From a virus, in IMG/VR virus record IMGVR_UViG_3300049448_000045, positions 1 to 41,235 of that record: a DNA stretch of 41,235 nucleotides. One strand, given 5' to 3'. Below the pieces are notes generated by a model, which worked only from the letters and a program-made list of their open reading frames with translations, was not told the DNA's origin and did no database searches. The first letter of the stretch is position 1. The number at the start of each line of letters is the position of its first letter. Positions 1,184 to 39,139 of this stretch are shown here, one piece after another. The position numbers and the translations under genes were made by a program.

Positions 1184-1477
1184 GTGGCAGCGCGTAAAAG
1201 ATCAGCTACCAGACCCGGCACAATGCCACAGCAATGGCGTGACCGTATCCAAGCCAGTATGCTTGTTAACCGATTGACAGATCATGTTAAAGGCGATGTT
1301 GAGTTGACGCCGAGTCAGGTTACGGCAGGGCTGGGACTTCTCAAGAAGGCGATACCTGATCTAGCGGCCCTTCAGGTGACAGGCGATCCTGAAAATCCAG
1401 TCCACATCCAATCAAAATTAGACGCCTCTGGGCTATCCGTTGACCAACTCCGCGCCCTCGCCAGCATCAAGGTTTAG
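1184..1477 (+). CDS. terS: Putative terminase small subunit
   Basis: A 97-residue protein with a GTG start, lying directly before and overlapping the large terminase gene by 38 nt. It has a basic N-terminus (MAARKRSATRPGTMPQQWRD) and a helical core with 'RLTDHVKGDVELTPSQV' followed by 'GLLKKAIPDLAAL'. That pattern resembles short small-terminase-like proteins of proteobacterial phages, in which an 'ELTPSQVRA' helix precedes a helix ending KxxPDL. Small terminases recognise the packaging site on the genome concatemer and load the large subunit. The assignment combines this resemblance with position; sequence identity in this family is low. Confidence 0.65.
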   Translation: MAARKRSATRPGTMPQQWRDRIQASMLVNRLTDHVKGDVELTPSQVTAGLGLLKKAIPDLAALQVTGDPENPVHIQSKLDASGLSVDQLRALASIKV

Positions 1478-3032
1478 CCCTGCTGACGTATTGGCTGCAC
1501 GGCAGGAACTGGCCAAGCGATCACTAACGGACTTTGCCTGCATGGTGGATATCCCCACCGTGCCTATCAGCGATGCGGAGGAGGAGGACCAGTTCAGCGT
1601 CATTCGCCTCAATACTCTGGTAAAGCATCATGCGCTTATTTGTAAGGAATTACAGGACGTTGCGGCGGGAGCAACGCCTAACCTGATGCTGCTTCTGCCT
1701 CCCGGCAGCGCCAAGTCAACCTATGTCGATGTTGTCTTTGTGCCGTGGTTTATGGCCAAATATCCCCGTAAGAACGTAATCTTGGCCAGCTATGCGACGA
1801 ACATCGCCCGCAAGCAGGGCCGCAGGGCGCGTCAGCTTATCCGCTCCAAGTCTTTCAAGAGCCTATTTCCGACGATAGAGCTATCCCAAGCCTCTAGCGC
1901 GGCTGACGAGTGGGCTTTGAGTACGGGGGGCGAGTATATGGCTGGTGGCCTGCTATCCGGCCTGACGGGCAACCGTGCGGCTCTGGGCATAGTAGACGAT
2001 CCGATAGCAGGACGCGAGGAAGCGGAAAGCGAGACGATCCGGGAGAAATGCTGGGATGCGTACATAGACGACTTCTGCTCACGTCTAATCCCCGGCGCGC
2101 CTCAGATTTTCATAACCACCCGCTGGCATCAAGACGACCCTGCAGGGCGTATTTTGCCTGAAGACTGGAAGGGTGAGAGCGGGTTAATCAACGGCAGGGA
2201 CGGTCGTAAATGGCGCGTTATATGCCTGCCTGCGATCTGTAACCGTGCTGACGATCCGTTGGGCCGAAACATCGGAGAAACGCTTTGGCCTGAATGGTTT
2301 AGCCTTGAGCATTGGAAGCCATTCCAGCAAAATAACCGCACATGGTCTAGCCTTTACCAGCAATCGCCCACGCCCGATGAAGGTACATTCTTCCAAAGAG
2401 ACTGGTTCCACCGTTACAAGGTAGGGCAACTCCCCTCGAATATCCGCTTCTACGGCACAAGCGATTACGCGGTCACGGAAGATGCTGGAGACTACACAGT
2501 CCACAGGATATGGGCGCTGGATGCCATGGGCGATATCTGGCTCCATGACGGCTGGAGAGGACAGGCAACGCCCGATGTATGGATAGAGCGCCAGATTGAC
2601 CTAATGGCCACCTATAAGCCTATGTGCTGGTTCGGAGAATCGGGCGTTATCATGAAGGCCGTCGAGCCCATGCTGCGCCGCAGAATGAACGAGCGCAAGA
2701 CATGGTGCAGGACCGAATGGCTCCCCTCGATCCATGACAAGCCCACGCGCGCGAGGGGCTATCAGGCCCGTGCTGCGATGAAGAAAATCCATATTCTAGA
2801 AGGGATTGACGGCGATCTGGTCTTGGACGAATACTTGCGCTTTCCGGCTGGCAAGAATGACGATGAGGTTGATGCTGGTTCGCTCATTGGCCGCGCCCTC
2901 GATCAGGCCCACCCTGCCATTGCTCCAGAGATACCAGTCAAACGACCCATCCTCGGCCTAGATACCCCCGTTACCATGGACGATGTATGGGAACAAACCG
3001 CTCCTAAGCCGGGACGGTACGAGAGGATTTGA
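1440..3032 (+). CDS. terL: Terminase large subunit (ATPase-nuclease)
   Basis: The DNA-packaging motor: an N-terminal ATPase drives translocation and a C-terminal RNase H-like nuclease cuts the concatemer. Visible motifs in the 530-residue reading from TTG 1440 are: Walker A LLPPGSAKST at about 85-94; Walker B ALGIVDDP at about 181-188; a coupling-type motif FITTRWHQDDP at about 224-234; and nuclease acidic motifs at YGTSDYAV (338-345), FGESG (398-402) and KNDDEVDAG (472-480). The start is uncertain. TTG 1440 overlaps terS by 38 nt, TTG 1491 is also possible, and the first in-frame ATG (1542) would remove part of the conserved N-terminus. Full length for the family, no disruption. Confidence 0.95.
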   Translation: MTNSAPSPASRFSPADVLAARQELAKRSLTDFACMVDIPTVPISDAEEEDQFSVIRLNTLVKHHALICKELQDVAAGATPNLMLLLPPGSAKSTYVDVVFVPWFMAKYPRKNVILASYATNIARKQGRRARQLIRSKSFKSLFPTIELSQASSAADEWALSTGGEYMAGGLLSGLTGNRAALGIVDDPIAGREEAESETIREKCWDAYIDDFCSRLIPGAPQIFITTRWHQDDPAGRILPEDWKGESGLINGRDGRKWRVICLPAICNRADDPLGRNIGETLWPEWFSLEHWKPFQQNNRTWSSLYQQSPTPDEGTFFQRDWFHRYKVGQLPSNIRFYGTSDYAVTEDAGDYTVHRIWALDAMGDIWLHDGWRGQATPDVWIERQIDLMATYKPMCWFGESGVIMKAVEPMLRRRMNERKTWCRTEWLPSIHDKPTRARGYQARAAMKKIHILEGIDGDLVLDEYLRFPAGKNDDEVDAGSLIGRALDQAHPAIAPEIPVKRPILGLDTPVTMDDVWEQTAPKPGRYERI

Positions 3033-3041
3033 CCAAACAAA

Positions 3042-3070
3042 GGGCGCTCTGACATTTCGCCAAAGCGCCC
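3042..3070 (-). terminator. Hairpin with T-rich 3' flank on the minus strand
   Basis: GGGCGCT (3042-3048) pairs with AGCGCCC (3064-3070) around a 15-nt loop. Read on the minus strand the stem is followed by TTTGTTTGG, giving a weak intrinsic-terminator shape; on the plus strand the flank is A/C-rich. It lies 10 nt after terL, so it could also act as a 3' end or processing structure for the terminase transcript. Confidence 0.4.
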
Positions 3071-3131
3071 ACACAACACACAATTCCCAAATGTCGAGTA
3101 TTCTTGAGGGTTTAAGCGGCTTTCAGGGCGA

Positions 3132-3246
3132 TCAAGTCGCTCTTGCTTCCCGCGTCATGGCATCCTCCTTTGTGAGAATTAACTAGGCCAATCTCAACTG
3201 GCTTTGTGAACGCAATGAGTAAAATCCTGAAATTCGGCTAAGTCAA
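3132..3246 (-). promoter_or_regulatory. Candidate tiny leftward transcription unit with 8-codon ORF
   Basis: On the minus strand TTGACT (3246-3241), a 17-nt spacer and TTTACT (3223-3218) form a plausible promoter. Downstream is AAGGAGG (complement of 3164-3170), a near-perfect Shine-Dalgarno sequence, 5 nt before ATG at 3158-3156. The ORF has only eight codons (MTREARAT, stop at 3132-3134). The hairpin at 3042-3070 follows. It may be a leader peptide, a small RNA, or chance. On the plus strand a 31-codon ORF at 3091-3186 covers the same bases but lacks a ribosome site. Confidence 0.3.
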
Positions 3247-3301
3247 GCCTTGATTTGTGGCCCGCAAGTGCGGTACAAATGAGGAGAATAAGAACTATGG
3301 C

Positions 3302-3478
3302 GTGTCACAATTGGCTTCTCAGGGTATGGATGTAACGGTTAAGGTTCGGCTCACTAAGGCCGACCGCGCGCTATTCGAGGCGGCGGCTAAGGCATCGCGT
3401 CTTACACTATCGGCGTGGGTTCGTTCTGTGGTCGCGCAAGAGGCATTGAAGCTTCAGGGTCAGAAGGTGATTGCGTGA
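3302..3478 (+). CDS. Small ribbon-helix-helix-like protein
   Basis: The core has a short beta strand (VTVKVRLTK) followed by two helices (ADRALFEAAAKASRL and TLSAWVRSVVAQEALK), the layout of ribbon-helix-helix DNA-binding proteins, including plasmid mobilisation accessory proteins. The start is unclear: the frame is open from GTG 3257, GTG 3302 follows GAGGAG (3281-3286) by 15 nt, and ATG 3326 begins just at the beta strand. The same GAGGAG is ideally placed for ATG 3297, which opens only a 12-codon peptide (MACHNWLLRVWM) ending at 3335, across the 3326 start, so leader coupling is possible. The stop overlaps the next gene. Likely DNA-binding regulator; target unknown. Confidence 0.6.
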   Translation: MSQLASQGMDVTVKVRLTKADRALFEAAAKASRLTLSAWVRSVVAQEALKLQGQKVIA

Positions 3479-3885
3479 CCGAGTTTGTTTATGTCGCTGC
3501 GTCGTTTCCGTCCGGCCCCTGCAAGGTCGGCAGAGCAATCAACCCCGACACGCGGGCACTCGATCTGCAATGTGGTAATCCCTTCAAGATTCGCATCTGG
3601 GCGAGATGTAAAACGACCGAGAGCAAGGCTCTAGAGCGCGCCGTTCATAAGAAGCTTAGCAAGCAGCTAATGTCTGGAGAGTGGTTTGCGGTCACGACAG
3701 CCGAGGCAGTCGCTGCAATCCATGATGTTTTGGCCGGTTTTGTGGTTAAGCCGAACCGAGCAAGCGAGCTAATGTTCGTGGAAATCGACCGTGCCAAATA
3801 CAATGCCTATCAGAGAGACTACAAGAAGGCTGTAAAGCTAGGGCTCAGTGTAAAAGCATACAGAGACAAGAAGGCGAGCGAATGA
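3475..3885 (+). CDS. T5orf172/Mug113-type GIY-YIG-like protein
   Basis: The GTG at 3475 overlaps the previous stop (GTGA); the frame is open from 3415 but that extension lies inside the upstream gene. The 136-residue product has the order expected for T5orf172 proteins, a branch of the GIY-YIG superfamily: VYVAAS at 5-10, CKVGR at 16-20, an Arg-containing helix near 25-33, LERAVHKKL at 53-61 and GEWFAV at 68-73. This family is common in phages and may act as a nuclease or bind DNA; its substrate is not established. The C-terminal 45 residues are basic (Lys, Arg, Tyr), consistent with nucleic-acid contact. Grouped with small accessory genes between terminase and portal. Confidence 0.7.
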   Translation: MTEFVYVAASFPSGPCKVGRAINPDTRALDLQCGNPFKIRIWARCKTTESKALERAVHKKLSKQLMSGEWFAVTTAEAVAAIHDVLAGFVVKPNRASELMFVEIDRAKYNAYQRDYKKAVKLGLSVKAYRDKKASE

Positions 3886-4076
3886 AATTTTTCAAATTTC
3901 CTGTAATCGGCATGATGATTGGAATGGCGCTTGTTTCAGCGGCAAATATCGCAGGACTTGTCGCGCGGTATGGGCTTCAGGAAAACCATGATCCGTTGAA
4001 CCCGACCGCCGTGTATCTGTGTTATTTTACAGTGTTCCTTTTTGGCCTTGCCGGGTTTCTGGCAGCGGTTGACTAG
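3882..4076 (+). CDS. Small two-TM membrane protein (64 aa)
   Basis: Coupled to the preceding gene by ATGA at 3882-3885. Residues about 4-26 (FKFPVIGMMIGMALVSAANI) and 42-62 (AVYLCYFTVFLFGLAGFLAA) are hydrophobic helices joined by a short polar loop. It is predicted to sit in the inner membrane. Small membrane proteins like this can be superinfection-exclusion or lysis accessory factors, but no family is recognised. Confidence 0.6.
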   Translation: MKFFKFPVIGMMIGMALVSAANIAGLVARYGLQENHDPLNPTAVYLCYFTVFLFGLAGFLAAVD

Positions 4077-4115
4077 CGGCATGACCCACACCAAACACAG
4101 AGAGAGGCAGGGGAG

Positions 4116-4400
4116 ATGACGAGGCCAAACAGTAGCATCTTAGACGAGACGATCAGAGATTATTTTCACGGAGCCAGCGGCTTGCGCTACCTGATGAATT
4201 TATTTGATGATTCACGCCAAGACGCGCCGATTCGATACAACGACAATCTATCGCCGTTCGATAGATTTGCAAATTGGCTTAGGCAGAGAGGGGGCTTCCC
4301 GGCAGGTAGACTCGGACGATGCCACTTAGAGTGCATCCTCGCCCTCTATAAGCAGAAGGTAAGTTCTCCGCGCCCCACCCCTCCCAGCGGTACGCCATGA
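4116..4400 (+). CDS. Hypothetical protein (94 aa)
   Basis: A clear ribosome site (ggcaggggag) stands directly before the ATG at 4116, so it probably begins a translational unit rather than being coupled. The product is soluble and mixed alpha-helical, with aromatic and Arg residues and a Pro-rich tail (RPTPPSGTP). The stop overlaps the ATG of the zinc-knuckle miniprotein at 4397. Several genes here (3885, 4397, 4549, 4872, 4952) overlap by exactly four bases. No family recognised. Confidence 0.55.
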   Translation: MTRPNSSILDETIRDYFHGASGLRYLMNLFDDSRQDAPIRYNDNLSPFDRFANWLRQRGGFPAGRLGRCHLECILALYKQKVSSPRPTPPSGTP

Positions 4401-4552
4401 GCGATATGATCTGCAAACTCTGTCACGGCTTTGGCTGGCTGTTTTGCATCCAAAATGACAAGCGCGAATGGCACGGCTGTCCAGCATGTCACAGCCACGG
4501 CACACGCAATGAATATCGCGGACCAGAGACAATACGGACACACGCCCCATGA
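4397..4552 (+). CDS. DnaJ-type zinc-knuckle miniprotein (51 aa)
   Basis: ATG 4397 overlaps the preceding stop and the TGA (4550-4552) overlaps the next ATG at 4549, so the gene is bracketed by ATGA couplings. Residues 6-13 read CKLCHGFG and 28-35 read CPACHSHG: two CxxC pairs followed by glycine, like the CxxCxGxG repeats of the DnaJ zinc centre. The cysteines C6, C9, C28 and C31 could bind one zinc ion. The rest is short and basic with no J domain. Free-standing zinc-knuckle miniproteins occur in phage accessory regions; the function is unknown. Confidence 0.65.
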   Translation: MSDMICKLCHGFGWLFCIQNDKREWHGCPACHSHGTRNEYRGPETIRTHAP

Positions 4553-4875
4553 CCAACTCAATGCTTGAGCAAGTGGCGAGGGCGGTTTGCGCTAATGCCT
4601 TGGGATGCATAAAGCGCCCCCGGTGCATCAATTCTGAAGGAACCAACGCGCCTTGTTCGGCATCTGTCGATCAACTCGTTCTTTTCGAAGCATGGCCAAC
4701 AGCCCGCGCCGCCATCCAAGCAATGCGGATTCCGACTGAGGCGATGATGAGCGCAGTCTATGGTGTTTGGGATCGGTATGGTGTCCGCGATGTTAGCGAA
4801 GTGGACCGTGATATTCTGAGAGAATCTTTGGTTGCTGCCATAGACTCCCTCCTCACAGAGGACACAGACAAATGA
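4549..4875 (+). CDS. Hypothetical phage protein (108 aa)
   Basis: Begins at an ATGA overlap and ends in another. The sequence starts MLEQVARAVC after a short lead and later has ARAAIQAMRIPTEAMM, a pattern common in small phage proteins that carry a 'xxARAAI.AMR.PT..M' helix. Five cysteines lie in the first 40 residues (C14, C20, C26, C36 and neighbours), possibly binding a metal. The function of this family is unknown. The second half is acidic and helical. Confidence 0.6.
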   Translation: MTNSMLEQVARAVCANALGCIKRPRCINSEGTNAPCSASVDQLVLFEAWPTARAAIQAMRIPTEAMMSAVYGVWDRYGVRDVSEVDRDILRESLVAAIDSLLTEDTDK

Positions 4876-4955
4876 CCGCCTTTCTCATCCTCCTAGCCCT
4901 CTACCTTGCATCTTGCCTACTCATAGCCCGTGTAATCGGGGTGATGAGCGCGTGA
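4872..4955 (+). CDS. Membrane mini-protein (27 aa)
   Basis: ATG 4872 overlaps the previous TGA and this stop (4953-4955) overlaps the following GTG at 4952. The whole product is one hydrophobic helix (MTAFLILLALYLASCLLIAR) with a short tail, so it would insert as a single-pass membrane peptide. Overlaps on both sides are the main evidence that it is translated. Function unknown. Confidence 0.45.
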   Translation: MTAFLILLALYLASCLLIARVIGVMSA

Positions 4956-5098
4956 AGCGTATACTCTGGCAGCTTCGTATGCTCATAGCCGAGTGGGGCT
5001 TGAGTTGGTGGTCGTGGGTTGCGAGCGACAAGTTGCCCATCGAAACTCATGCCGCCTTCCTAGCCTTCCTCGATAAGTTGCCAAAGGAGCCGCGCTAA
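4952..5098 (+). CDS. Small Trp-rich hypothetical protein (48 aa)
   Basis: GTG 4952 is chosen because it overlaps the previous stop (GTGA) and follows a purine-rich stretch (ggggtgatgag). The frame is open further upstream only through the membrane mini-gene. The product MKRILWQLRMLIAEWGLSWW has five tryptophans in the first 25 residues, suggesting an amphipathic membrane-associated helix, then a polar C-terminal helix. After it, 5099-5134 holds a small GC stem (CCCGC/GCGGG) before the portal gene. Confidence 0.45.
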   Translation: MKRILWQLRMLIAEWGLSWWSWVASDKLPIETHAAFLAFLDKLPKEPR

Positions 5099-5134
5099 TA
5101 TACACCATAACCCGCGTACATTTGCGGGCTCTAG

Positions 5135-7447
5135 GTGGCTGTCAACTCTCCAGTAATCAACTCCCCGACCGCCTCTAACGGGGCAAATGCCATTGAAACC
5201 CCTAAAGACTTTGGCGACAAGCCTGAGGATCAGGCTTCATACTGGATTGCACAAGACAAGGTAGCCTACGACCGCGAGCAGAAGTGGATCAAGCAGGGAC
5301 GCGGCATCATCGACCGCTACCGGGATAAACGGAAAGTCGCGGATAAAGGTGTTCACCGCTACAACGTGCTTTGGTCCAATGTTCAGACGCTCAGGCCCGC
5401 CATCTTCGCCAGAGCGCCAAAGCCTGAAGTGGACCGCCGCTTTGACGATCAAGACCCCGTAGCGCGCCTCTCGGCTGAATTGCTTGAGCGCGCGCTGTCC
5501 TATCTCCTAGACATGCATAAGTTTGATGACCAGATGCGGGGATGTGTCGATGACCTACTGCTCCCCGGTCGTGGCGTCATGCGGGCACTCTACACGCCCC
5601 ATTATGGCGATGCGATACCAGCGGAGAGCGACGATACGTCAGGCGCTCCTGAGGACGTAGACGCGGGCGAGGGATACGCAGCGGCCAGTAATCCAGAGCA
5701 ACTGCGCGAGGTCGTGTCTGAGGACGCCTATCTTTGCTATGTGTTCTGGGAGGATTACCGCGAGGGTCCGGCGCGCAAGTGGGAAGATGTACCGTGGGTT
5801 CGTTTCCGCGCCTTTATGACCCGCCAGCAGCTTACGGACCGATTTCAGGCCAAGGGCAAGCTCGTAAATCTTGATTCGTCCCCTCACAATGAGGCCAGCG
5901 GTATTGATGACCGCGACGGCGAGAGTATGCAATCTCTGTTCAAGAAGGCAGAGATTTGGGAGATTTGGGACAAGACACAGAAGCGCGTGCTTTGGGTCGC
6001 ACCCGGATCGCAGAACCTTGGCATCCTCGATCAGGTCAATGACCCGCTAGGGCTTCAGGGTTTCTTCCCCAATGCCGACCCCCTCCTTGCCACGACCACG
6101 ACAGACACCCGCATACCCGTTCCTGACTATGTGGAATATCAGGATCAGGCGAGCGAGTTGGACAATATCACCCGCCGCATCGACATACTGCTCAAGGCGC
6201 TGAAGGTTTCCGGCGTTTATGCGGGGTCTGAGAAGCAGGTTTTACAGCAGTTAATCGGGGGTGACGAGAACAAGCTTATTGCGGTCGATGATTGGGCGCA
6301 ATTCATGACGGACAAGGGGGGCATTCAGAACCTCATCCAGTTCATGCCCATTCAGCAAGTCGCTGAAACCCTCATCCAGCTTTACAATGCCCGCGACCGC
6401 TGCGAGCAGGTTCTATATCAGATTACGGGCATGGCTGACATCATGCGCGGCTCGTCAGACCCTAATGAGACGGCGACGGCCCAGCAGATCAAGGCCCAGT
6501 TCGGCACGATGCGGCTCAATGACCGCCAGCGTCAGGTTGCCAACTTCGCCCGCGACAATATCCGCCTCCTTGCCAATGTCATTGCGGGGCAATTCTCGCC
6601 TCAGGCGCTTTCCGAGATTACGGGCTATCCAAAGCTCCAGCCTATGCCTCAACCCCCCGCTGGTTTGCAGCCCACGATCATGGACCCGCAGACCGGCCAG
6701 CCCGCACCCAACCCGCAGTTTCAGCAATTCCAGCAGAAGGCTCAGGAAATTCAGGGCCAAAACCAGAAGGCGCAGGCCGACTTCATGGCTGCGTGCCAGT
6801 TGCTCAAAGACGACATGCCTCATGGGTACCGGATCGACATCGAGGCCGACTCCACAATCATGCCTGACGAACAGCAGGAGAAGCAGAGCAAGATTGAGTT
6901 CGTCCAAGCCTTCACCCCGTTCCTGCAACAGGCCATTCAGGGCGCTATGGCGTTGCCTATCACGGCCCCACTCAGCAAGGAACTGACGCTATTCCTCATG
7001 CGTGGGTTCAAGGTTTCGCGTCCGCTGGAAGAACAGGTCGAGAAGCTATTCGACCAGATGGCACAAATGCCGCCGCAGCCCCAAGGCCAAGACCAGAAGC
7101 CTCAGGACAATGGCGCTGGCGATATGGCAAAGGCTCAGGCCGATGTGCAGGGCAAGCAGATCGAGGCGCAGACGGAACAGCAGCGTATTCAATCCGAAGC
7201 CCAAACCTCTGGACAACAGACGCAAGCCGATGCCGCGACAAAGCTCCAGATCGCCAATACACAGGCTCAAGTCGAGGCCCAGAACAATCAGGCAAATCAG
7301 GCTATCCAGCTACAGAAATTGCATCAGGACGGCGCATTTAGAGCGGCTGATTTGCAATTGAAGGAACGCGATCAGGAAATGCGCGCAGAGGCATTGCGGA
7401 CGCGCGAGCTTAAAAACGCATCGGCTGAAGCCTCTAAACTGCAATAG
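5135..7447 (+). CDS. Portal protein
   Basis: The dodecameric ring at the unique capsid vertex through which DNA is packaged and ejected. The 770-residue protein fits podovirus (P22-like) portals in size and order: a polar N-terminus, a helical clip/wing region (DREQKWIKQGRGIIDRYR at about 45-62, SELDNITRRIDILLKALKVS near 350), 'QITGMADIMRGSSDPNETAT' at about 429-448, a long amphipathic helix region, then a C-terminal extension from about 640 rich in Gln, Ala and Lys and predicted to be a coiled-coil barrel. GTG start without a strong ribosome site. It follows the accessory small genes and is followed by the scaffold and capsid genes as expected. Confidence 0.9.
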   Translation: MAVNSPVINSPTASNGANAIETPKDFGDKPEDQASYWIAQDKVAYDREQKWIKQGRGIIDRYRDKRKVADKGVHRYNVLWSNVQTLRPAIFARAPKPEVDRRFDDQDPVARLSAELLERALSYLLDMHKFDDQMRGCVDDLLLPGRGVMRALYTPHYGDAIPAESDDTSGAPEDVDAGEGYAAASNPEQLREVVSEDAYLCYVFWEDYREGPARKWEDVPWVRFRAFMTRQQLTDRFQAKGKLVNLDSSPHNEASGIDDRDGESMQSLFKKAEIWEIWDKTQKRVLWVAPGSQNLGILDQVNDPLGLQGFFPNADPLLATTTTDTRIPVPDYVEYQDQASELDNITRRIDILLKALKVSGVYAGSEKQVLQQLIGGDENKLIAVDDWAQFMTDKGGIQNLIQFMPIQQVAETLIQLYNARDRCEQVLYQITGMADIMRGSSDPNETATAQQIKAQFGTMRLNDRQRQVANFARDNIRLLANVIAGQFSPQALSEITGYPKLQPMPQPPAGLQPTIMDPQTGQPAPNPQFQQFQQKAQEIQGQNQKAQADFMAACQLLKDDMPHGYRIDIEADSTIMPDEQQEKQSKIEFVQAFTPFLQQAIQGAMALPITAPLSKELTLFLMRGFKVSRPLEEQVEKLFDQMAQMPPQPQGQDQKPQDNGAGDMAKAQADVQGKQIEAQTEQQRIQSEAQTSGQQTQADAATKLQIANTQAQVEAQNNQANQAIQLQKLHQDGAFRAADLQLKERDQEMRAEALRTRELKNASAEASKLQ

Positions 7448-7527: not shown

Positions 7528-7836
7528 ATGGCGCAACGATATTGCAAGGTCTGTAGCGACTGGCACGATTTGGACGAGCCATGGCCGCAGGCTTGTATGG
7601 GCCATTACCGGAGCAAAAAGGACCGCGAGGGTATTCAGGTCATTAAGGACGTTGAGCCCTATCGCTCCGTCATAGATCGCTCCGTTATTGGCGGCAGGCG
7701 TCAGCATCGCGATCATCTCAGAGCCCATAACTGTATCGAAATCGGAACCGAGAAGCAGACACCACGCAAGCCGCCTGACGTTCCGCATCTAAGACAAGAC
7801 ATTCAACGAACCATGGAGCAACTGCGTGCCCGCTAG
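7528..7836 (+). CDS. Small zinc-binding phage protein next to portal
   Basis: ATG 7528 is preferred over the in-frame ATG 7489 because an AAGGGG ribosome site lies about 10 nt before it. The 102-residue product starts MAQRYCKVCSDWHDLDEPWP then QAC: Cys6, Cys9, His13 and Cys23 make a compact metal-binding site. It continues 'IQVIKDVEPYRSVIDRSVIGGRRQHRDHLRAH'. This CxxCxxWH...WPxxC followed by 'RSVIDRxxIGGRxxHRxHL' is a recognisable phage family found between portal and scaffold genes. Its role is unknown; a regulatory or assembly role is likely from its conserved place. Ends 11 nt inside the scaffold gene. Confidence 0.75.
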   Translation: MAQRYCKVCSDWHDLDEPWPQACMGHYRSKKDREGIQVIKDVEPYRSVIDRSVIGGRRQHRDHLRAHNCIEIGTEKQTPRKPPDVPHLRQDIQRTMEQLRAR

Positions 7837-9043
7837 ACAAGCCGTGCAAGTACAGCCCGAAGCAGAGCCAGAGACGGACGATCTGCGCGGCACTATTGCT
7901 GCGGCGATGGAAGCGGCTAACGCTCCCGAAGAAACGGTTGAGCAGACTCCTGCTCCCAAGAGTTCGGCCCCTGAGCCAGCATCGACCGTCACTCCTCCGG
8001 CAGATGCTGATGTCCCTGCGTCCGCTACGGAACCGGGGGCCGATACTTCCAAGCCTGATAACGCGGAAGGGGCCGAACCGGCTCCTGCCGTTACGGACAA
8101 AGTTGAGGCCCCGTCCAATTGGTCCAAGGCGGACAAGGAACGCTTTGCGGAATGGCCTGAGAGTGCGCAGAAGCAGGTTCTTGAGCGTCACCGCGCCATG
8201 GAAGCGGATTACACCCGCAAGACCATGGAGAACGCAGAACTCAAGCGGGAATATTCTCCCGTAGAGCAGATGTTCGCGCCCTTCAAAGACATGCTTCGTC
8301 AATCCGGGCGTACACCTAGCTCGGTAATTCGCGATTGGGCCAATGCAGAAGCCGCATTAGGCAATCCGGGCACGCGCGAAGACGCAATCGTTCGCATCAT
8401 CAAGGGCTACAACGCCGACCCGCAGAAGATTTATTCTCTGTTGGGCGGCGGACAGCAGCAGCCCCAGCAGCCGGTCGATCTGGCCAACATGACGGAGCAG
8501 CAGCAGATCGCTGAATTGCTCAATCCCATGTTCAAGCAAAATCTGTCGCCTATTGAACATAAGATGCAGCAGCTTGAGCAGCAATTACAGCAGGCGCAGC
8601 AGTTCCAGTATGGCGCAGTCAACGCGCAACGCCAGCAAATCTTCCAGACGGTGACCAACGAACTTGAGGCGTTTGCCAACGCAACCGACCCAAAGACTGG
8701 TCAGCTTCTGTATCCCTACTTCAATGACGTGCAGAGCGACATGACGGCCATCATGAAAGGTTACTATGACCAAGGCCGTAACCTGACACTCATCGAAGCC
8801 TACAATGCAGCCGTAAGAGCAAACCCCTCCACCTTAGAGCGCATTACCGCCCAGCAGACGAAAGCAGCGGAAGTAGCTCGCACACAAGAGGCCAGGGCCA
8901 AATCGGCACAAGCGAAAAGAGCAGGATCAAGTGTGGTTGGAACCCCCGGATCGGGTCAGTTCGTCCATGCGAACGGCGATGGCCGTGATCTTGGATCATT
9001 GCGCGAAACGATTCAGGCCGCACTGGAAGCTTCCCGTGTGTGA
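7826..9043 (+). CDS. Scaffolding-type protein
   Basis: A 405-residue protein with a GTG start overlapping the preceding gene by 11 nt. The first 85 residues are acidic, Pro/Ala/Glu-rich and disordered. Then comes 'APSNWSKADKERFAEWPESA' (about 92-111), a signature of this podovirus scaffold family, a helical body with PSSVIRDWANAEAALG, and a Gln-rich coiled coil (roughly 208-275). It lies immediately before the major capsid gene, as scaffolds do. Scaffolds direct procapsid assembly and leave before or during packaging. No protease domain is visible. Confidence 0.8.
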   Translation: MPARQAVQVQPEAEPETDDLRGTIAAAMEAANAPEETVEQTPAPKSSAPEPASTVTPPADADVPASATEPGADTSKPDNAEGAEPAPAVTDKVEAPSNWSKADKERFAEWPESAQKQVLERHRAMEADYTRKTMENAELKREYSPVEQMFAPFKDMLRQSGRTPSSVIRDWANAEAALGNPGTREDAIVRIIKGYNADPQKIYSLLGGGQQQPQQPVDLANMTEQQQIAELLNPMFKQNLSPIEHKMQQLEQQLQQAQQFQYGAVNAQRQQIFQTVTNELEAFANATDPKTGQLLYPYFNDVQSDMTAIMKGYYDQGRNLTLIEAYNAAVRANPSTLERITAQQTKAAEVARTQEARAKSAQAKRAGSSVVGTPGSGQFVHANGDGRDLGSLRETIQAALEASRV

Positions 9044-9072: not shown

Positions 9073-10050
9073 ATGGCAATTCCTAACACAAACTGGACGG
9101 AGATCATCACCACGACTCTGTTCAACCGCAGCAAAAAGCTTGCGGACAACGTGACGAAAGCAAACGCCCTTCTGTTTCAGATCAGCAAGAAGGGCCGCAT
9201 GAAGCCTGTAGACGGCGGTACCAACATCATTCAAGAACTCGAATACGCTGAGAACGGAACCTATACCCGTTACAGCGGCTACGATATTTTGAATGTCAGC
9301 CCTTCTGATGTCTTTACGGCTGCGTCGTACAACTTCGCACAGGCAGCGGTTGCCGTGTCGATCAGCGGCCTTGAAGAATTGCAGAACGCTGGAGAGGAGA
9401 GGGTTATCAATCTCCTTGAATCCCGCATCGGCAATGCTGAGCGTACCATGCGCAACAACATCTCCGCAGACTGCTATTCCGATGGCACGGCTTCTGGCGG
9501 CAAGCAGATCGGCGGTCTTGCCCTGCTTGTTCCCGACGCCAATACATCTGGTACGGTAGGCGGTATCGACCGTGCAACTTGGACGTTCTGGCAGACGCAG
9601 AAGCAGTCGTTCGCAACGGACGGCTTCACGGCTGGTCCTTCAACCATCCAGACGGAAATGAACCGTCTTTGGCTGAAGCAGATTCGTCAGGCCGACCGTC
9701 CCGACATCATCATCGCGGATAATAACTACTACCGTTATTACCTCGAATCCTTGCAGGCGATCCAGCGTATCGCATCCGAGGACAAGGCGAGCGCGGGCTT
9801 CATGTCGCTCAAGTTCATGGATGCCGATGTTGTTTGCGACGGCACCATCTACGGCGGCGGCGCGACGGCTAACCATATGTGGTTCCTAAACACGGACTAT
9901 ATTTTCTTCCGTCCGCATAAGGACCGCAACATGGTGCCCCTCGATCCAAAACGCTTCTCAGTCAATCAGGACGCGATGGTTCAGTTGATCGCTTTCGCTG
10001 GCAATATGACGCTTAGCAACGCAGCGTTGCAGGGAGTTCTGGTCGCCTAA
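9073..10050 (+). CDS. Major capsid protein
   Basis: A 325-residue protein with a good ribosome site (tggagcc) before ATG 9073, between scaffold and decoration genes. It begins MAIPNTNWTEIITTTLFN and has the strand/helix mix of HK97-fold coat proteins used by podoviruses: 'YTRYSGYDILNVSPSDVFTA' (E-loop-like region), 'AVAVSISGLEELQNAGEERV' leading into the spine helix, then 'RPDIIIADNNYYRYYLESLQ' and a C-terminal 'MTLSNAALQGVLVA'. 'MTLSNAALQGVL' at the end is typical of this coat subfamily. It forms the icosahedral shell. No delta-domain protease site is evident. Confidence 0.9.
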   Translation: MAIPNTNWTEIITTTLFNRSKKLADNVTKANALLFQISKKGRMKPVDGGTNIIQELEYAENGTYTRYSGYDILNVSPSDVFTAASYNFAQAAVAVSISGLEELQNAGEERVINLLESRIGNAERTMRNNISADCYSDGTASGGKQIGGLALLVPDANTSGTVGGIDRATWTFWQTQKQSFATDGFTAGPSTIQTEMNRLWLKQIRQADRPDIIIADNNYYRYYLESLQAIQRIASEDKASAGFMSLKFMDADVVCDGTIYGGGATANHMWFLNTDYIFFRPHKDRNMVPLDPKRFSVNQDAMVQLIAFAGNMTLSNAALQGVLVA

Positions 10051-10073: not shown

Positions 10074-10592
10074 ATGGCTACTTGGATTCCTACTGAAAAC
10101 GAGATCGGCATTCAGCCGATTGCGACGACATCGACCACTGCAAATCATGCTCTTGGCAAGGTTATCCGTGCCAAGGACAATGATACGACTGGTCAGGGTG
10201 CGGCAGAGTTCATCTACCTTCTTGGCGTTGCCAATACGGTAGTGGGTTCGGCTGTCACCTATAACACCTCCACGTTCCAGACGGCGATTGCACTTGGTAC
10301 TGCCAATCAGGGCGGCGCTGTTGCCTTTGCCATGTCTGCCAACGTGGCTGCTGGCTATGGCTGGTATCAGATCGGCGGCTCTGCTGTCGTGAAGAAAACC
10401 GCTGTGATCGTTTCCGCTGCCAAGAAGGTTTATCTTGTCAGTTCGACGGTTACGGGCAATGGCCGCATCTCTGCCGCCTCGGTTACGGGTAAGCAGATTC
10501 TCGGTGCGCGCTCTGCGAACCTGACGGCGATTGCTTCGGCAACGTCCACGGTTCTGGTCATGCTTGATCGTCCGCATCTCGCGGCGATTTAA
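10074..10592 (+). CDS. Putative capsid decoration protein
   Basis: A 172-residue Ala/Thr/Val-rich beta protein starting MATWIPTENEIGIQPIATTS, with a ggag ribosome site, directly after the coat gene. A low-charge, beta-rich composition with 'AIALGTANQGGAVAFAMSAN' and 'GYGWYQIGGSAVV' is what one sees in head-decoration or head-fibre proteins found at this position in podoviruses. It would bind the outer shell and stabilise it. No catalytic motif. The hairpin at 10600-10630 follows, so high capsid-region transcription may drop after this gene. Confidence 0.6.
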   Translation: MATWIPTENEIGIQPIATTSTTANHALGKVIRAKDNDTTGQGAAEFIYLLGVANTVVGSAVTYNTSTFQTAIALGTANQGGAVAFAMSANVAAGYGWYQIGGSAVVKKTAVIVSAAKKVYLVSSTVTGNGRISAASVTGKQILGARSANLTAIASATSTVLVMLDRPHLAAI

Positions 10593-10599
10593 CGGAGGC

Positions 10600-10630
10600 T
10601 GGGGAAGGTTTCTTACGGGAGCCTTCCCCA
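10600..10630 (+). terminator. Strong hairpin after the capsid/decoration genes
   Basis: TGGGGAAGG (10600-10608) is perfectly complementary to CCTTCCCCA (10622-10630) with a 13-nt loop. It starts eight bases after the decoration stop and ends 22 bases before the next ATG. There is no T-tract, so it may be a leaky terminator or a 3' stabiliser that sets capsid mRNA apart from the genes beyond. No other perfect nine-base stem of this kind was noticed among the rightward late genes. Confidence 0.5.
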
Positions 10631-10651: not shown

Positions 10652-12649
10652 ATGCTCCGGATTTGCTGCGTCAAGGTCAATTCTGCGTATGATGCAAGAT
10701 ATGTGAATGTCTTGTACGACTGCGTTACGCGCAATCTTGATGAAGGCACGGCTGGTGAATTTCACTGCTTCACGGATAACCCTGAGGGGCTGCATCCCAA
10801 CATCATAACGCACCCCGTTCCGTCCGAGTTCACGGGATGGTGGGCTAAACTGCATCTGTTCAAGGACGGTCATTTCGAGGACGGAGACAGAATTGTCTAC
10901 ATCGACCTCGATACGGTGATCTTCGGTCCGCTTGATGACATCGTGCGGTATAGCGGACACTTTGCTATCCTAAGAGACTTCTTCAAGCCTCATAACGATA
11001 TGCAGAGTGCCATCATGGCATGGCCCGCAAATACACAGCAGGCCATTTTGGACAAGTGGGTTGCGCTTGGCAGGCCAGAACTACAGGGCGGCGATCAGGA
11101 ATTGATCCAGATGTCCCTTGAGGAGCGCGGGATTGTTCCCGACTTCCTGCAAGACCTCTTTCCCGGCAAATTCGTCTCGTACAAGAGCGGCAGTTACAAG
11201 CGCGTGCCTCCGAGAGGGGCGAGTGTTGTCTGCTTCCACGGCCAGCCCAAGCCCCACAACTGCGGGTCTAGTTGGGTTGACGGCGTGTGGAAGATTGACG
11301 GCTCCATGGCATTTGAGATTGAGCAGTTCTGCAATACGGAAGATGCCAAGGTTGAGGCGAATATCAAATATGCCGTCTCCAAAGGCTTTCCGTGGCTCGC
11401 GCTCAAAGACGCGCATGAGAGAACGGCTGTAATCTGTGGCGGCGCTCCGTCGCTCAAGAACACATGGCGCGATATCTGGTCCTGCACGGACTTCGATGTG
11501 TTCGCCTGCAACAATACGGCTCGGTTTCTTGAGGAGCGCGGCATTGATGTTGCCTATCATGTCGTTGTCGATGCCCGTCCTGAGATCGTAGAGTTTATCC
11601 AGCCAACGGCTCCGAGGAAGGGTTATCTGCTCGGATCAATGTGCGATGTTGGCGTTTTCTTGGCCGTGAACAGCGGTGCTGTCACTGTTTTTCATCCCAA
11701 GGTAAAGGGCGTTGTCGAGTTAATCGAGAACGATCCGCGCGCCAAGTGTATTGTTGGTGGCGGCTCTACGGTCTGCCTCAAGGCAATCGCAATCGCCTAC
11801 ATCATGGGCTATCGGAAATTCCATCTGTTTGGCATGGATTCCAGCTATTCTGGAGACGAACATCACGCCTATCCGCAAAGCCTGAATAATGATGATCCAA
11901 TTGTTGAGGTTCAGGTTGACGATCAGTATTTCAAGACCTCTCCATGGATGGTCGCACAGGCTGACGAGTTTGATGACCTTGTGTGCGAACTTCTAACCCT
12001 CGGCTGCACGTTCGATATCTCAGGTGACGGTCTTATCCCCTATATCTGCCGCGACCGGGTTAATAGTACGAAGGTCTGCGCTGCCGATGAACGCGCTCAG
12101 GCTATTCTAAGCCGCCTTCCGAGAGGAGAAATCCGGGGCGCTGAGATAGGCGTCTTTGCTGGCGATCTATCGTCCCGCCTTCTGGCCCGTGAAGGATTGA
12201 ATCTCTCCATGATCGACTCATGGGCTCCGAATGGCGAGGATTACGCGCCGGGTTCGGATGACTTCCACGCTTCCCTGACATGGGACCAGCAAAGCAAGTT
12301 CATGCAGATGTCCATTCGCGCGACGGACTTTGCCAAAGACAGACGAACAATTATCGTCATGTCTTCCGAAGCGGCGGCGCAGAACTTCACCGATGGCATG
12401 TTGGACTTTGTGTTCATTGATGCCGATCATTCCTATGAGGGATGCAAGCGCGATATCGCTGCATGGTATCCGAAGCTCAAGGATGGAGCCCTGCTTAGTG
12501 GTCACGACTATGACCATCCTGAATACCCCTCATGGGGCGTGAAACGAGCCGTGGATGAGTTCGCCAAATCTCACGGGCTTAGTGTCGATTTTGGCGAGAA
12601 CATGACTTGGTTCATCAACAAACCGCTCGCGAAAGAAATCGCGGCTTAG
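10652..12649 (+). CDS. Three-domain glycosyltransferase / MptE-like / methyltransferase
   Basis: A 665-residue fusion. Residues about 1-225 look like a GT-A glycosyltransferase: MLRICCVKVN start, 'GWWAKLHLF' and the metal-binding DxD in RIVYIDLDTVIFGPLDD (D85, D87). Residues about 255-460 match the DUF115/MptE-like fold: 'TAVICGGAPSLKN', 'VFACNNTARFLEERGIDVAY', 'GGSTVCLKAIAIAY' and 'FHLFGMDSSYS'. Residues about 485-655 are a class I SAM methyltransferase of the Methyltransf_24 type: 'GAEIGVFAGDLSSRLL', 'LDFVFIDADHSYEGCKRDIA' and 'DGALLSGHDYDHP'. It sits inside the virion-assembly operon, so it may modify a virion or host-surface glycan; the substrate is unknown. All three active-site motifs look intact. 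Confidence 0.8.
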   Translation: MLRICCVKVNSAYDARYVNVLYDCVTRNLDEGTAGEFHCFTDNPEGLHPNIITHPVPSEFTGWWAKLHLFKDGHFEDGDRIVYIDLDTVIFGPLDDIVRYSGHFAILRDFFKPHNDMQSAIMAWPANTQQAILDKWVALGRPELQGGDQELIQMSLEERGIVPDFLQDLFPGKFVSYKSGSYKRVPPRGASVVCFHGQPKPHNCGSSWVDGVWKIDGSMAFEIEQFCNTEDAKVEANIKYAVSKGFPWLALKDAHERTAVICGGAPSLKNTWRDIWSCTDFDVFACNNTARFLEERGIDVAYHVVVDARPEIVEFIQPTAPRKGYLLGSMCDVGVFLAVNSGAVTVFHPKVKGVVELIENDPRAKCIVGGGSTVCLKAIAIAYIMGYRKFHLFGMDSSYSGDEHHAYPQSLNNDDPIVEVQVDDQYFKTSPWMVAQADEFDDLVCELLTLGCTFDISGDGLIPYICRDRVNSTKVCAADERAQAILSRLPRGEIRGAEIGVFAGDLSSRLLAREGLNLSMIDSWAPNGEDYAPGSDDFHASLTWDQQSKFMQMSIRATDFAKDRRTIIVMSSEAAAQNFTDGMLDFVFIDADHSYEGCKRDIAAWYPKLKDGALLSGHDYDHPEYPSWGVKRAVDEFAKSHGLSVDFGENMTWFINKPLAKEIAA

Positions 12650-13027: not shown

Positions 13028-13906
13028 ATGTCTATCAAGGCAGATCAGTACAGCAGAGACTACCAGAATGTTGCCGACAGCAACGAGGACAAGGACACTT
13101 GCATTCCCCGCTTCTACATGGAAGCGGAGGAGTTCGAGGTTGACGGTTCTCCGCAATGGCGTGACCGTGAGATGGTGGAAGTCATCATTCCCGGCAATGC
13201 GAATACGCGCTTCGTCAAATATGTGGACGAGCATGTGAAGGCACGCTGGCCGAACGCTTATCGGGCATTCAAAGAGAACCAGTCTGCGCCCGTGATCGGC
13301 ACGCCGCTGGAACAGTGGGCGCGTCTCTCGCCTGCCATGGTGATGAAGCTCAAATCTACGGGCTTCAGAACTGTTGAGGACATTGCGCGTGTTGCCGATT
13401 ACAACCTTGGCTCTCTTGGCCTTGGGGGCATGAAGCTTCGTCTTTTGGCGCAGGCGTTCATCAACGATGCGGATCGCATGGCCGTCACGAACAAGGCGGT
13501 GGAAGATGCGATGCGTTTCGAGGCGCGCTGCAAGGAGCTTGAGTCTCAGGTCGAGGCGTCTAACTCTCAGTTCCGCCAGATGTTCGAGGAAATCAAGGCG
13601 CTGAAGATGAACCAGTCGGTTGCGCTTCAGAACCTTGGGTCTGCTCCTGCCATGCAGGGCCAGCCGGTTTATCAGCCGTCAATCCAGCCGCAGGCCCCGT
13701 CTTCGCCCTTTGCGTCTCTTATGAGCCCGGAGGAACAGGCGGCAGAACTTTCGCAGTTCAATCAGGCCGTATCTCGCCAGCCGTTGCCTGTTCATCAGCC
13801 AGCGCAAGCAACGCATGAGATGAGCGTCCCTGCGAACAAGCCGCGTCGTGGTCCAAAGACAAAGGCTGAAAAGGCAGCGATAGCAGCGGCACAGCAAGGA
13901 GCGTAG
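13028..13906 (+). CDS. Hypothetical virion-region protein with HhH-like segment
   Basis: A 292-residue protein. Residues 1-80 form a beta-rich globular part ('RFYMEAEEFEVDG', 'MVEVIIPGN'). Residues about 91-145 ('GTPLEQWARLSPAMVMKLKS' then 'GFRTVEDIARV') resemble a helix-hairpin-helix or SAP-like fold. A helical coil (155-195) and a Pro/Gln-rich tail ending in a basic patch (NKPRRGPKTKAEKA) follow. Similar proteins occur in podovirus structural operons without a known role. The layout suggests a nucleic-acid-binding or scaffold role; not proved. Confidence 0.6.
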   Translation: MSIKADQYSRDYQNVADSNEDKDTCIPRFYMEAEEFEVDGSPQWRDREMVEVIIPGNANTRFVKYVDEHVKARWPNAYRAFKENQSAPVIGTPLEQWARLSPAMVMKLKSTGFRTVEDIARVADYNLGSLGLGGMKLRLLAQAFINDADRMAVTNKAVEDAMRFEARCKELESQVEASNSQFRQMFEEIKALKMNQSVALQNLGSAPAMQGQPVYQPSIQPQAPSSPFASLMSPEEQAAELSQFNQAVSRQPLPVHQPAQATHEMSVPANKPRRGPKTKAEKAAIAAAQQGA

Positions 13907-14775: not shown

Positions 14776-15729
14776 ATGAGTCTCCTTACGATCTGCCAAT
14801 CCGCAGCCCGCATCATCAAGATTGAGGTTCCTTCGTCCATTGTGAACAACACGGGCGAGGAGGCTCAGTTATTGCTTCAGTGTGCGCAGTTTGAGGGTAT
14901 GGCGCTGTCCCGCCGTCCTCAGGGCGGATGGGTAAACAGCATCCTTGAGAAGCAGTTTAACACCGTCTCTCTTGGCCCCTTCAGCGGTACGGTTGCCAAC
15001 ACGGGTTCGGGAGGCAGAGCGCAGATCACGGGGCTTAGTTCTACCGCTGGCATTACTGCGCTGCTGTTCGGTGTGGCAGGCAATGGCATTATCTACAACT
15101 CTGTTGTGGCGAGCGTCGATGGCCCATTCGGCGTGACGCTCAATCTTCCTGCATCCACGACAGGGCCTGCGACCGATATTGTATTCGGGCAATTTGCCTA
15201 CGCTGTGCCGTCCGATTTTCAGCGGCCTATCGACAATACGATGTGGGATAGAACGCGGTACTGGCCGATGGCTGGCCCTCTGAGCCCGCAACAGCAGCAG
15301 TTCTTCAAGTCGAGCATCTTCTGTCAGGCAACGATTCAGAGGCGCTTCTGGTTTCAGAAGATCGGCAACGCTACATATTTCATCGTCAATCCGCTTCCGA
15401 CAGACAACAATTCCCAGCTTGCGTACAACTATGTCTCAAATGCGTGGTGCCAGTCGTCAGCGAACGCACCGCAGACGCAATGGCTGGCCGATACGGACAC
15501 TGGCATCCTAGACGAATACCTGATGACATTGGGTGTGACGTGGCGTGCGCTGGATCGCCTTGGCGTCGATTATTCCTCTGCCCTCGATGACTACGTTAGA
15601 GAGGTCGATAAGGCTGTTGCGCAGGATGGCGGCGCGGCTACACTAAGTCTGGTTCCAACTGTGGGGCCGTTCCTCTTGAGCCCGACAACTTCCGTGAGTG
15701 AAGGATCGTGGCCTAGCACGCCGGTATAA
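14776..15729 (+). CDS. Head-tail connector, P22 gp4-like adaptor
   Basis: A 317-residue protein starting MSLLTICQSAARIIKIEVPS, with a perfect AAAGGAG ribosome site. The start 'MSLLTICQxAAxxIGIxxPSS' and 'LLLQCAQFEGMALSRR' are typical of podovirus tail-accessory/adaptor proteins that dock under the portal. A low-complexity beta insert (about 65-145) precedes 'YAVPSDFQRPIDNTMWDRTR' (about 138-157) and a helical C-terminus ending DDYVREVDKAVAQDGG. It would close the portal channel after packaging. Position between small head genes and the gp10-like gene fits. Confidence 0.75.
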   Translation: MSLLTICQSAARIIKIEVPSSIVNNTGEEAQLLLQCAQFEGMALSRRPQGGWVNSILEKQFNTVSLGPFSGTVANTGSGGRAQITGLSSTAGITALLFGVAGNGIIYNSVVASVDGPFGVTLNLPASTTGPATDIVFGQFAYAVPSDFQRPIDNTMWDRTRYWPMAGPLSPQQQQFFKSSIFCQATIQRRFWFQKIGNATYFIVNPLPTDNNSQLAYNYVSNAWCQSSANAPQTQWLADTDTGILDEYLMTLGVTWRALDRLGVDYSSALDDYVREVDKAVAQDGGAATLSLVPTVGPFLLSPTTSVSEGSWPSTPV

Positions 15730-33026: not shown

Positions 33027-33542
33027 ATGCGTAGATATAAAGAACTTCTCAAACCTGAGACTCTTAGATCACTTCTCTCTTACGATCCAGAAAGTGGTGA
33101 TTTTAAGTGGATAGAAAAGAGATTTAATGGAGCCGATTCTGGACAAAGCGCAGGCTCTATAAACCGATACGGATATCGGAGGATTTGCGTTTTTGGGTCT
33201 TATTATACCGCCCACAGGCTTGCATGGTTATTACACTATGGCGTTGAACCTAAGGGCTCTCTAGATCACATAAACGGCGTTCGATCTGATAACCGTATAG
33301 CCAATCTTAGAGAGGCAACTAATTCTCAAAATGGCTACAACATGTCTCTTTCATCTGCCAGCAAGTCTGGGGTGAAAGGCGTTAGATTTTACTGCAGAGC
33401 TGGCAGAAAAGATAAATGGTCTGCGAGAATCATGGTTCAAGGAGAGTCTATATTCTTAGGCTTATTTGATACTCTTGAAGAAGCAAAATCTGCGAGATTA
33501 TGCGCCGCTGAAAAATATCATGGAGAATTTGCGAGGCCGTAA
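33027..33542 (+). CDS. HNH homing endonuclease with AP2 domain
   Basis: A 171-residue protein. 'AHRLAWLLHYG' (about 62-72) and 'LDHINGVRSDNRIANLREAT' (79-98) form the HNH/NUMOD4-like catalytic core, with H63 and the D80-H81-N83 cluster. Residues about 112-168 ('SGVKGVRFYCRAGRKDKWSA', 'FLGLFDTLEEAKSARLCAAE') are an AP2 DNA-binding domain. Such free-standing genes spread into phage genomes by cutting intronless or geneless alleles. The coding DNA looks more A/T-rich than its neighbours (by eye), a sign of transfer. It interrupts the stretch between the membrane-protein genes and the endolysin. Confidence 0.85.
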   Translation: MRRYKELLKPETLRSLLSYDPESGDFKWIEKRFNGADSGQSAGSINRYGYRRICVFGSYYTAHRLAWLLHYGVEPKGSLDHINGVRSDNRIANLREATNSQNGYNMSLSSASKSGVKGVRFYCRAGRKDKWSARIMVQGESIFLGLFDTLEEAKSARLCAAEKYHGEFARP

Positions 33543-33586: not shown

Positions 33587-34102
33587 ATGAATTGGCCGAC
33601 TACCGATGCTGATTTAATCCGGCAGGTCATCCTCTACAATGAGGGCGGCTATGTGAACAATCCGGCAGACAAAGGCGGCCCAACTCACTACGGGATTACC
33701 CAAGATACGCTCGCATCATGGCGCGGCCACCCCGTCACGGTCGATGACGTAAAGAATCTCCCGATGGCCGAGGCTATCTCAATCTACGAGAAGCGTTACA
33801 TCGTAGACCCGAACTTCATCCTCATATCCGATATAAAGTTGCGCACAGCCCTTGTAGATGCTGCCGTGCTGTTTGGCCCTCAGACTGTAATCAAGGCTCT
33901 ACAGGGCATTCTAGGGGTCAAGGCGGACGGTGTTCTTGGAAACGATACTGCGGCAGCGGCGGGACGGCTTGAAGCAAGGGGGCTAATCAATTCCCTCTCT
34001 GTCTGGCGAGTTACGCGCCATGCTTCAAGAGTAGACGCGGACCATTCCCAGATAGTGTTCTTGAAGGGCTGGATGGCTAGGGCGACGAGCTTTATTGTCT
34101 AA
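33587..34102 (+). CDS. Endolysin, GH108-type muramidase
   Basis: A 171-residue protein. Residues 14-37 (VILYNEGGYVNNPADKGGPT then HYGIT) carry the GH108/zliS signature E-G-G-Y-x-N-x-x-D-x-G-G-x-T-x-x-G-I-T with catalytic Glu19. The C-terminal part ('ALVDAAVLFGPQTVIKALQG' through 'VWRVTRHASR') matches the PG_binding_3 region of the same family. It cleaves the glycan strands of peptidoglycan; there is no signal peptide, so it needs a holin or pinholin. Its stop overlaps by four bases with the convergent small membrane gene of the minus-strand module. Confidence 0.85.
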   Translation: MNWPTTDADLIRQVILYNEGGYVNNPADKGGPTHYGITQDTLASWRGHPVTVDDVKNLPMAEAISIYEKRYIVDPNFILISDIKLRTALVDAAVLFGPQTVIKALQGILGVKADGVLGNDTAAAAGRLEARGLINSLSVWRVTRHASRVDADHSQIVFLKGWMARATSFIV

Positions 34103-35959: not shown

Positions 35960-36108
35960 TTACGGAGCCCAAAGAGCCTCTGAATGCGGTGTTTGACATT
36001 CTCTACAAGGATCAAGATTCCGAGCCCCGCAAATATGAGCGCAATGATACCCCAGACGATAAGTCCGAGAATGTCATGTACGCTCCAGACCACGAACATA
36101 TGCGGCAT
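35956..36108 (-). CDS. Single-TM 50-residue peptide
   Basis: Start ATG at 36108, with 'tggaga' as ribosome site in the end of the preceding gene. The stop overlaps the permease start (ATGA). The product is MPHMFVVWSVHDILGLIVWG followed by IIALIFAGLGILILVENVKH and a basic C-terminus (RIQRLFGLRK). It has one long hydrophobic helix and a positive tail, so it probably spans the inner membrane with the C-terminus inside. A small subunit or regulator of the transporter is plausible; no family known. Confidence 0.6.
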   Translation of the reverse strand: MPHMFVVWSVHDILGLIVWGIIALIFAGLGILILVENVKHRIQRLFGLRK

Positions 36109-36110
36109 TG

Positions 36111-36305
36111 CTATCTCCAGAGTTCACGATTGAAGACAGCCTTGAAGCCATCATTCATGGCCTTTGCCATCTTCTCCATCTCCTCCGCAATCTTGTCGCG
36201 ATTGTCTTTGGACGGCCACACAGTCTTTTTGGGAGTTTCCGTTGTCTGCGTTTGGAGCGCGATGTGTTCTCCGCAATGCGGACATTCGATCAGAGATTCT
36301 TTCAT
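36111..36305 (-). CDS. CPHC-type small protein (64 aa)
   Basis: Starts MKESLIECPHCGEHIALQTQ. Cys8 and Cys11 form one CPHC pair (a second pair is missing, so a zinc site would need a dimer or His14). The rest is a charged amphipathic helix ('SKDNRDKIAEEMEKMAKAMN'). Located two bases ahead of the one-TM peptide and five after the OmpA-fusion gene, so it is part of the operon. The CPHC could alternatively be a redox motif, as in thioredoxin-like proteins, but the fold is absent. Confidence 0.6.
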   Translation of the reverse strand: MKESLIECPHCGEHIALQTQTTETPKKTVWPSKDNRDKIAEEMEKMAKAMNDGFKAVFNRELWR

Positions 36306-36314
36306 GGCTTTCTC

Positions 36315-38084: not shown

Positions 38085-38101
38085 TTTCTCTCTCCTCAGA
38101 T

Positions 38102-39130: not shown

Positions 39131-39139
39131 GATTAGCCC

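Follow-up and report, generated by a model that had tools for sequence, protein, structure and literature searches.

Gene and genomic setting

The stretch of viral DNA considered here (the window: 41,235 nucleotides, positions 1 to 41,235 of IMG/VR record IMGVR_UViG_3300049448_000045) carries, within its head operon, a gene coding for a 665-residue protein made of three fused enzyme domains (10652..12649, + strand, ATG start; Pfam and PHROG matches). These are a glycosyltransferase (GT), a central domain of family PF01973, hereafter the hub, and a methyltransferase. This locus raises the question of what would be glycosylated and methylated by an enzyme encoded among capsid genes. A methylated sugar carried by the virus's own shell is the most likely answer because relatives of the enzyme share the same genomic slot and evolve together with the capsid decoration protein.

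The head operon is ordered as follows: large terminase (1440-3032), portal (5135-7447), a p47-like gene coding for a 405-aa protein (7826-9043), major head protein (9073..10050, +; phrog_9953, 1.3e-117), used here as the lineage marker, decoration protein (10074..10592, +; phrog_29386, 1.8e-27), fusion gene, p50-like gene (13028..13906, +; phrog_20268, 3.4e-16) and SU10-type head-tail adaptor (14776..15729, +; Pfam and PHROG matches). The position between decoration and connector genes given in the first-pass annotation is therefore correct. The capsid protein is related to that of Myxococcus phage Mx8, and the decoration protein resembles p49 of this phage, a virion structural protein; it is the predicted acceptor. 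The genome of Mx8 has nothing inserted at this point, p49 ('major virion structural protein') and p50 being encoded by immediate neighbours, which makes the fusion gene an accessory one. A homologue of the p50-like gene adjoins the slot in most loci and marks its downstream border.

Between the decoration and enzyme genes, the RNA can form a hairpin with a 14-bp stem (10600..10630, +; MFE z -2.9) and no T-run. It may be imagined that this hairpin is an attenuator or an mRNA processing site, possibly reducing the enzyme to a catalytic dose. At the right end of the window, past the lysis region, the - strand codes for an ABC transporter ATPase, a permease and an OmpA-family protein (34359-39763). 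These genes look like the bacterial flank of a prophage, or else like acquired cargo.

The three domains of the fusion protein

The first-pass annotation described three enzyme domains, and the Pfam matches to PF01973 and Methyltransf_24, together with the PHROG glycosyltransferase match, bear this out. The full-length model of the 665-aa protein has a pTM of 0.46, and the domains are therefore considered one by one.

The N-terminal domain (aa 1-225; 10652..11326, +) is a GT-A glycosyltransferase resembling glycogenin. It is matched at aa 8-214 by phrog_1962, annotated 'glycosyltransferase' (2.7e-32), and by the glycogenin profile (2.7e-10), with alignment of the DxD and DQ motifs (DLDT 85-88, GGDQ 146-149); in structure model comparison, its fold gives a Z-score of 17.5 to glycogenin-1. 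D85, D87 and D148 recur in 90% or more of the 40 sequences aligned. The metal-binding histidine of GT8 enzymes is displaced: that of glycogenin aligns with Cys194, and an invariant histidine, His196, occurs two residues on, within the motif FHGQPKPH (195-202). As compared with the HxxGxxKP signature, GxxKP is kept and the histidine stands one residue before the glycine rather than three. For this reason, the domain is named GT8-like and is not assigned to GT8. PmgQ of phage P1, HdmD of phage P7 and the phrog_1962 glycosyltransferases are homologous to this domain, with about 30% identity, and their matches are confined to it.

The hub (aa 226-490; 11327..12121, +), delimited by profile, fold and alignment, has a sialyltransferase-like fold. 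The Pfam family PF01973 (MptE-like, or Maf_flag10) matches aa 253-401 (6.2e-15; 55.8 bits for a curated cut-off of 34.6). Its motifs are GGAPSL (263-268), D307, invariant in the domain-wide alignment, GGGST (369-373), GMDSS (394-398) and HHAYPQ (404-409). A model of the hub alone, built from 50 sequences (pLDDT 93, pTM 0.89), is closest in fold to Magnetospirillum Maf (5mu5; Z 22.3, rmsd 2.9, 222 aa aligned). The archaeal MptE/HPPK structure 8sd5 comes next (Z 15.3), then the sialyltransferases Cst-I/II (about 11), and lower down thiamin pyrophosphokinase (9.7) and mammalian sialyltransferases (7-10). Sequence profiles rank Maf at 1e-15 and MptE at 5e-4, with Cst-II falling below threshold. 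Hence MptE, a 6-hydroxymethylpterin diphosphokinase, is second to Maf by both sequence and fold. As judged from profiles and modelled structure, the hub is nearest to the flagellin nonulosonate transferase Maf, then to MptE, then to Cst-I/II. The name 'MptE-like' given in the first-pass annotation is misleading, the domain being nearer to Maf flagellin glycosyltransferases than to the pterin diphosphokinase.

The Maf proteins of M. magneticum (5mu5) and C. botulinum (CbMaf), which are flagellin nonulosonate O-glycosyltransferases, have in common with the hub their central PF01973 domain and its fold. The GxGPS motif is shared, and the GxD and H/Q regions align. The central domain of Maf resembles Cst-II, and CbMaf accepts CMP-Neu5Ac and CMP-Kdo (PMC11339370). 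However, Maf has its own N-terminal degenerate Rossmann-like domain and C-terminal helical bundle, both lacking in the fusion protein, where the hub is flanked instead by the glycogenin-like GT-A domain and a class I methyltransferase. The sequence and VIA-align matches to 5mu5 are confined to the hub. Moreover, Maf genes are found in flagellar loci, whereas the fusion gene belongs to a capsid operon.

The C-terminal domain (aa 491-665; 12122..12646, +) is a class I SAM O-methyltransferase of the Methyltransf_24 family, as indicated by Pfam (PF13578 at aa 498-620, 2.4e-14; 54.5 bits for a cut-off of 26.3), fold and alignment; phrog_2675, a methyltransferase family, matches aa 473-661 (5e-27). 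E498, G500, D522, D590 and D619 are invariant in 24 sequences. The domain matches the sugar O-methyltransferases MeT1 and MycF, with other O-methyltransferases scoring similarly. It has in common with MeT1, MycF and CalS11 the fold and the SAM and acidic motifs. These three are stand-alone enzymes acting on small molecules or polysaccharides, whereas here the domain is fused. From sequence and model, it looks more like an enzyme that O-methylates sugars than like a separate protein methylase.

All the motifs on which the three-enzyme description was based are present (DLDT 85-88, GGAPSL 263-268, GAEIGVFAGD 496-505, FIDADHSYEG 588-597), and the catalytic-type residues are invariant in the six full-length homologues compared, as well as across the domain-wide alignments. 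A degenerate enzyme is ruled out by this invariance of the motif residues, one GT8 metal ligand being displaced.

Distribution and exchange of the cassette

A profile scan found relatives encoded in 350 viral stretches. Among 80 loci chosen by their capsid protein alone, 25 have the hub. Architectures were classified in 151 loci, many of which were chosen for the presence of the hub, so that the following counts give no prevalence estimate. The triple fusion GT-hub-MT24 (MT24 for Methyltransf_24) occurs in 32 of them, corresponding to 25 distinct proteins (<95% identical), GT-hub in 46, GT-hub-FkbM in 13, and the hub alone or with a separate GT in 9. Rarer forms are hub-MT24 (3, all truncated by contig ends) and hub-GTB (2); the remaining 46 have none. 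The domain order is the same in the 32 triple-fusion loci, and 24 distinct triple fusions other than that of the window, on independent contigs, rule out a fusion or frameshift created by an assembly error.

The PF01973 domain is thus the constant hub of a modular system, in which the GT may be separate or absent and the methyltransferase missing or swapped for FkbM. Two unrelated methyltransferase families, Methyltransf_24 and FkbM, take the third position of the fusion, which points to a methyl-capped glycan.

The triple fusion occupies one slot in the virion operon of Mx8-like phages, downstream of the decoration gene and upstream of the adaptor genes. On a capsid tree, which is a quick one with many weak forks, it requires 14 changes for 16 representatives, a scatter close to random, and among GT-hub proteins the third domain has switched on 11 or more occasions. 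This scatter indicates that the cassette passes between capsid lineages while its slot is kept. A comparison of two loci with near-identical capsids, L111 with the enzyme and L068 without it, delimits such an exchange: DNA similarity ends within the decoration gene and returns at about the beginning of the p50-like gene. The exchanged unit therefore covers most of the decoration gene.

Several loci depart from these arrangements. In two Shinella prophages whose head genes differ from the Mx8-like set (L086, 8001-9208; L087, 8001-9786), unfused, overlapping GT and Methyltransf_24 genes follow a portal-like gene. Their side-by-side occurrence argues for a functional relation of the two activities. 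A third small gene following them in L087, considered as a candidate unfused hub, has no Pfam match, and its hhalign probability to the hub is 2%. In L004 (7629-9260) and L040 (4575-6257), the C-terminus of the hub is fused to a domain of about 280 aa, weakly resembling TIGR04372 glycosyltransferases. An additional, stand-alone hub gene lies immediately 3' of the GT-hub fusion in L143 and L145 (7388-8185 in both) and in L152 (7355-7912).

The decoration protein as partner

Distances between enzymes were compared with those between virion proteins in 40 non-redundant loci. Once capsid distance is removed, enzyme distance is correlated with decoration-protein distance (partial rank r 0.57, with p 0.001 by permutation, a value from which, as with the Wilcoxon p values below, shared ancestry is incompletely removed). 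The correlation amounts to 0.72 in a stricter core set and to 0.51 within triple fusions alone. For the other virion genes, it is weak (0.14-0.18): 0.18 for the p50-side gene, 0.17 for the p47-like gene, 0.15 for the adaptor and 0.14 for g508. Enzyme and decoration protein are inherited together. It should be noted that neighbouring genes can be co-exchanged by linkage alone, yet the gene on the other side of the enzyme is not.

Residues able to carry O-linked sugars were also considered. In an unmatched comparison of hold-out loci, Ser/Thr content of the adaptor differed equally, a sign of confounding by lineage, and capsid-matched pairs were therefore used. In 28 of 32 such pairs, Ser+Thr content of the decoration protein is higher in the member having the hub (+4.6 points, p 1.7e-6). 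Controls gave 16:16 for the capsid protein, 17:14 for g292 and 15:8 for g508 (p 0.06). The adaptor, too, contains more Ser/Thr in phages having the enzyme (20:5, that is 20 of 25 non-tied matched pairs; +2.2 points, p 9e-4). Thus, the matched-pair test does not single out a unique acceptor, and the adaptor could be a second one. O-glycosylation of the decoration protein is the simplest reading of its co-inheritance with the enzyme and of its Ser/Thr enrichment.

The decoration protein of the window has a Thr/Ser-rich C-terminal stretch, AIASATST (aa 152-159; 10527-10550). A strict Thr/Ser motif, [TA][VI][ASTV][STAG][STAGN][TVA]S[TS], defined post hoc, occurs in 23 of 43 decoration proteins with the enzyme and in 0 of 32 without it in the first set, where decoration genes were called mechanically and a few calls are wrong (e.g. 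L005, L017 and L025, in which another ORF precedes the true gene). It was unconfirmed in the hold-out loci (3/28 versus 0/25, p 0.24). An underpowered test with independent pairs yielded 4.2 of 6 pairs at a median p of 0.125 and in no case pointed the other way.

Proposed mechanism and alternatives

Taken together, these data make it probable that the fusion enzyme is expressed late and serves for the O-glycosylation and O-methylation of the capsid decoration protein. Several steps may be envisaged. In a first step, the GT-A domain would use a nucleotide-sugar donor to attach or extend a sugar of the hexose type. The hub would then transfer a second sugar, plausibly a CMP-activated acid, either a nonulosonate or Kdo supplied as CMP-Kdo. 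Finally, the C-terminal methyltransferase would O-methylate, and thereby cap, the glycan. We infer catalysis, donors, order of the steps and attachment to Ser/Thr from the enzyme families and their order. The donors would be supplied by the host, since neither NeuB nor a CMP-sugar synthetase (CTP_transf_3) was found in 22 fusion-bearing records, several of them fragments, with searches for donor synthesis that did give matches in control genomes. CMP-Kdo is made by Gram-negative hosts. The cassette would be exchanged among Mx8-like phages along with the matching decoration protein.

A more detailed scheme can be put forward tentatively, with chances well below even of being right as a whole: a swappable cassette of Mx8-like phages for capsid glycosylation, in which a Maf-related transferase adds to the decoration protein, with which it co-evolves, a sugar of the nonulosonate or Kdo type with interchangeable methyl caps. 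An enzyme of the kind that glycosylates flagellin would then have been turned to a virus shell.

The first-pass annotation had proposed either virion proteins or host surface sugars as targets. Comparative data favor the former, and specifically the decoration protein, over the latter. An unlikely alternative is that a polysaccharide of the host surface is glycosylated and methylated, in the course of infection or in the lysogenic state, resulting in receptor masking or superinfection exclusion. The O-antigen is modified by many phage glycosyltransferases, and the ABC-transporter and OmpA-family genes at the right end of the window suggest that the virus may be an integrated prophage. However, no partner of the membrane or flippase type could be recognised beside the fusion gene, the slot lies within the capsid operon wherever the flanks are covered, and co-inheritance is observed with the decoration protein, not with other virion genes. 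It is equally doubtful that adaptor, tail or fibre proteins are modified, whether in place of the decoration protein or along with it: the Ser/Thr content of the adaptor would fit such a view, but adaptor distance barely tracks enzyme distance given capsid distance (0.15). Finally, a hub of the diphosphokinase type (MptE/HPPK or thiamin pyrophosphokinase-like), making an activated small molecule with no sugar transfer, is improbable: PF01973 is named after MptE, the two kinases are among the fold matches (Z 15.3, second best, and 9.7) and D307 is invariant, but Maf is ahead by sequence and fold, Cst-I/II match too and the hub is fused to a glycosyltransferase.

Relation to known systems

Modification of the decoration protein by the fusion enzyme would have precedents in mycobacteriophages, where phage enzymes are known to O-glycosylate the capsid (PMC12363180, PMC11652166). 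A phage glycosyltransferase modifies capsid or tail proteins in Che8 (gp110), Corndog (gp38) and Myrna, as is proposed here; these phages have other hosts, and their systems are described without a PF01973 hub or a fused methyltransferase. Flagellin-glycan islands also carry FkbM and pfam13578 methyltransferases (PMC6993521), the two families that take the third position of the fusion.

The gene family itself is already known, as unnamed 'MptE-like' phage proteins in databases. Two such proteins from uncultured Caudovirales, A0A6J5PVH5 (700 aa) and A0A6J7XC21 (685 aa), have a total length like that of the fusion protein and a hub 35-36% identical to that of the window (TM-score 0.87-0.88); they are annotated as MptE-like alone, with no proposed function or system. 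A search of the open-access literature retrieved no description of a phage MptE-like protein, its hits being unrelated to judge by title and abstract. The modular system, the closeness of the hub to Maf and the joint inheritance of enzyme and decoration protein are new. If the proposed function is correct, virion glycosylation would be extended, beyond mycobacteriophages, to a wide group of phages from the environment, and a function would be assigned to the many phage proteins that bear the annotation 'MptE-like' pterin kinase. The pair formed by the enzyme and the decoration protein, with its natural domain swaps, would also offer a means to test the structure of the glycan, the recognition of the capsid and the competition between phages.

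Two further observations may be added. A marine contig, L003, carries several adjacent, related small GT-like genes (2223-6061) beside phage-like structural ORFs. In the window, an HNH endonuclease gene with a weak AP2-domain match (33027-33542) adjoins that of a glycosyl hydrolase 108 endolysin (33587-34102).
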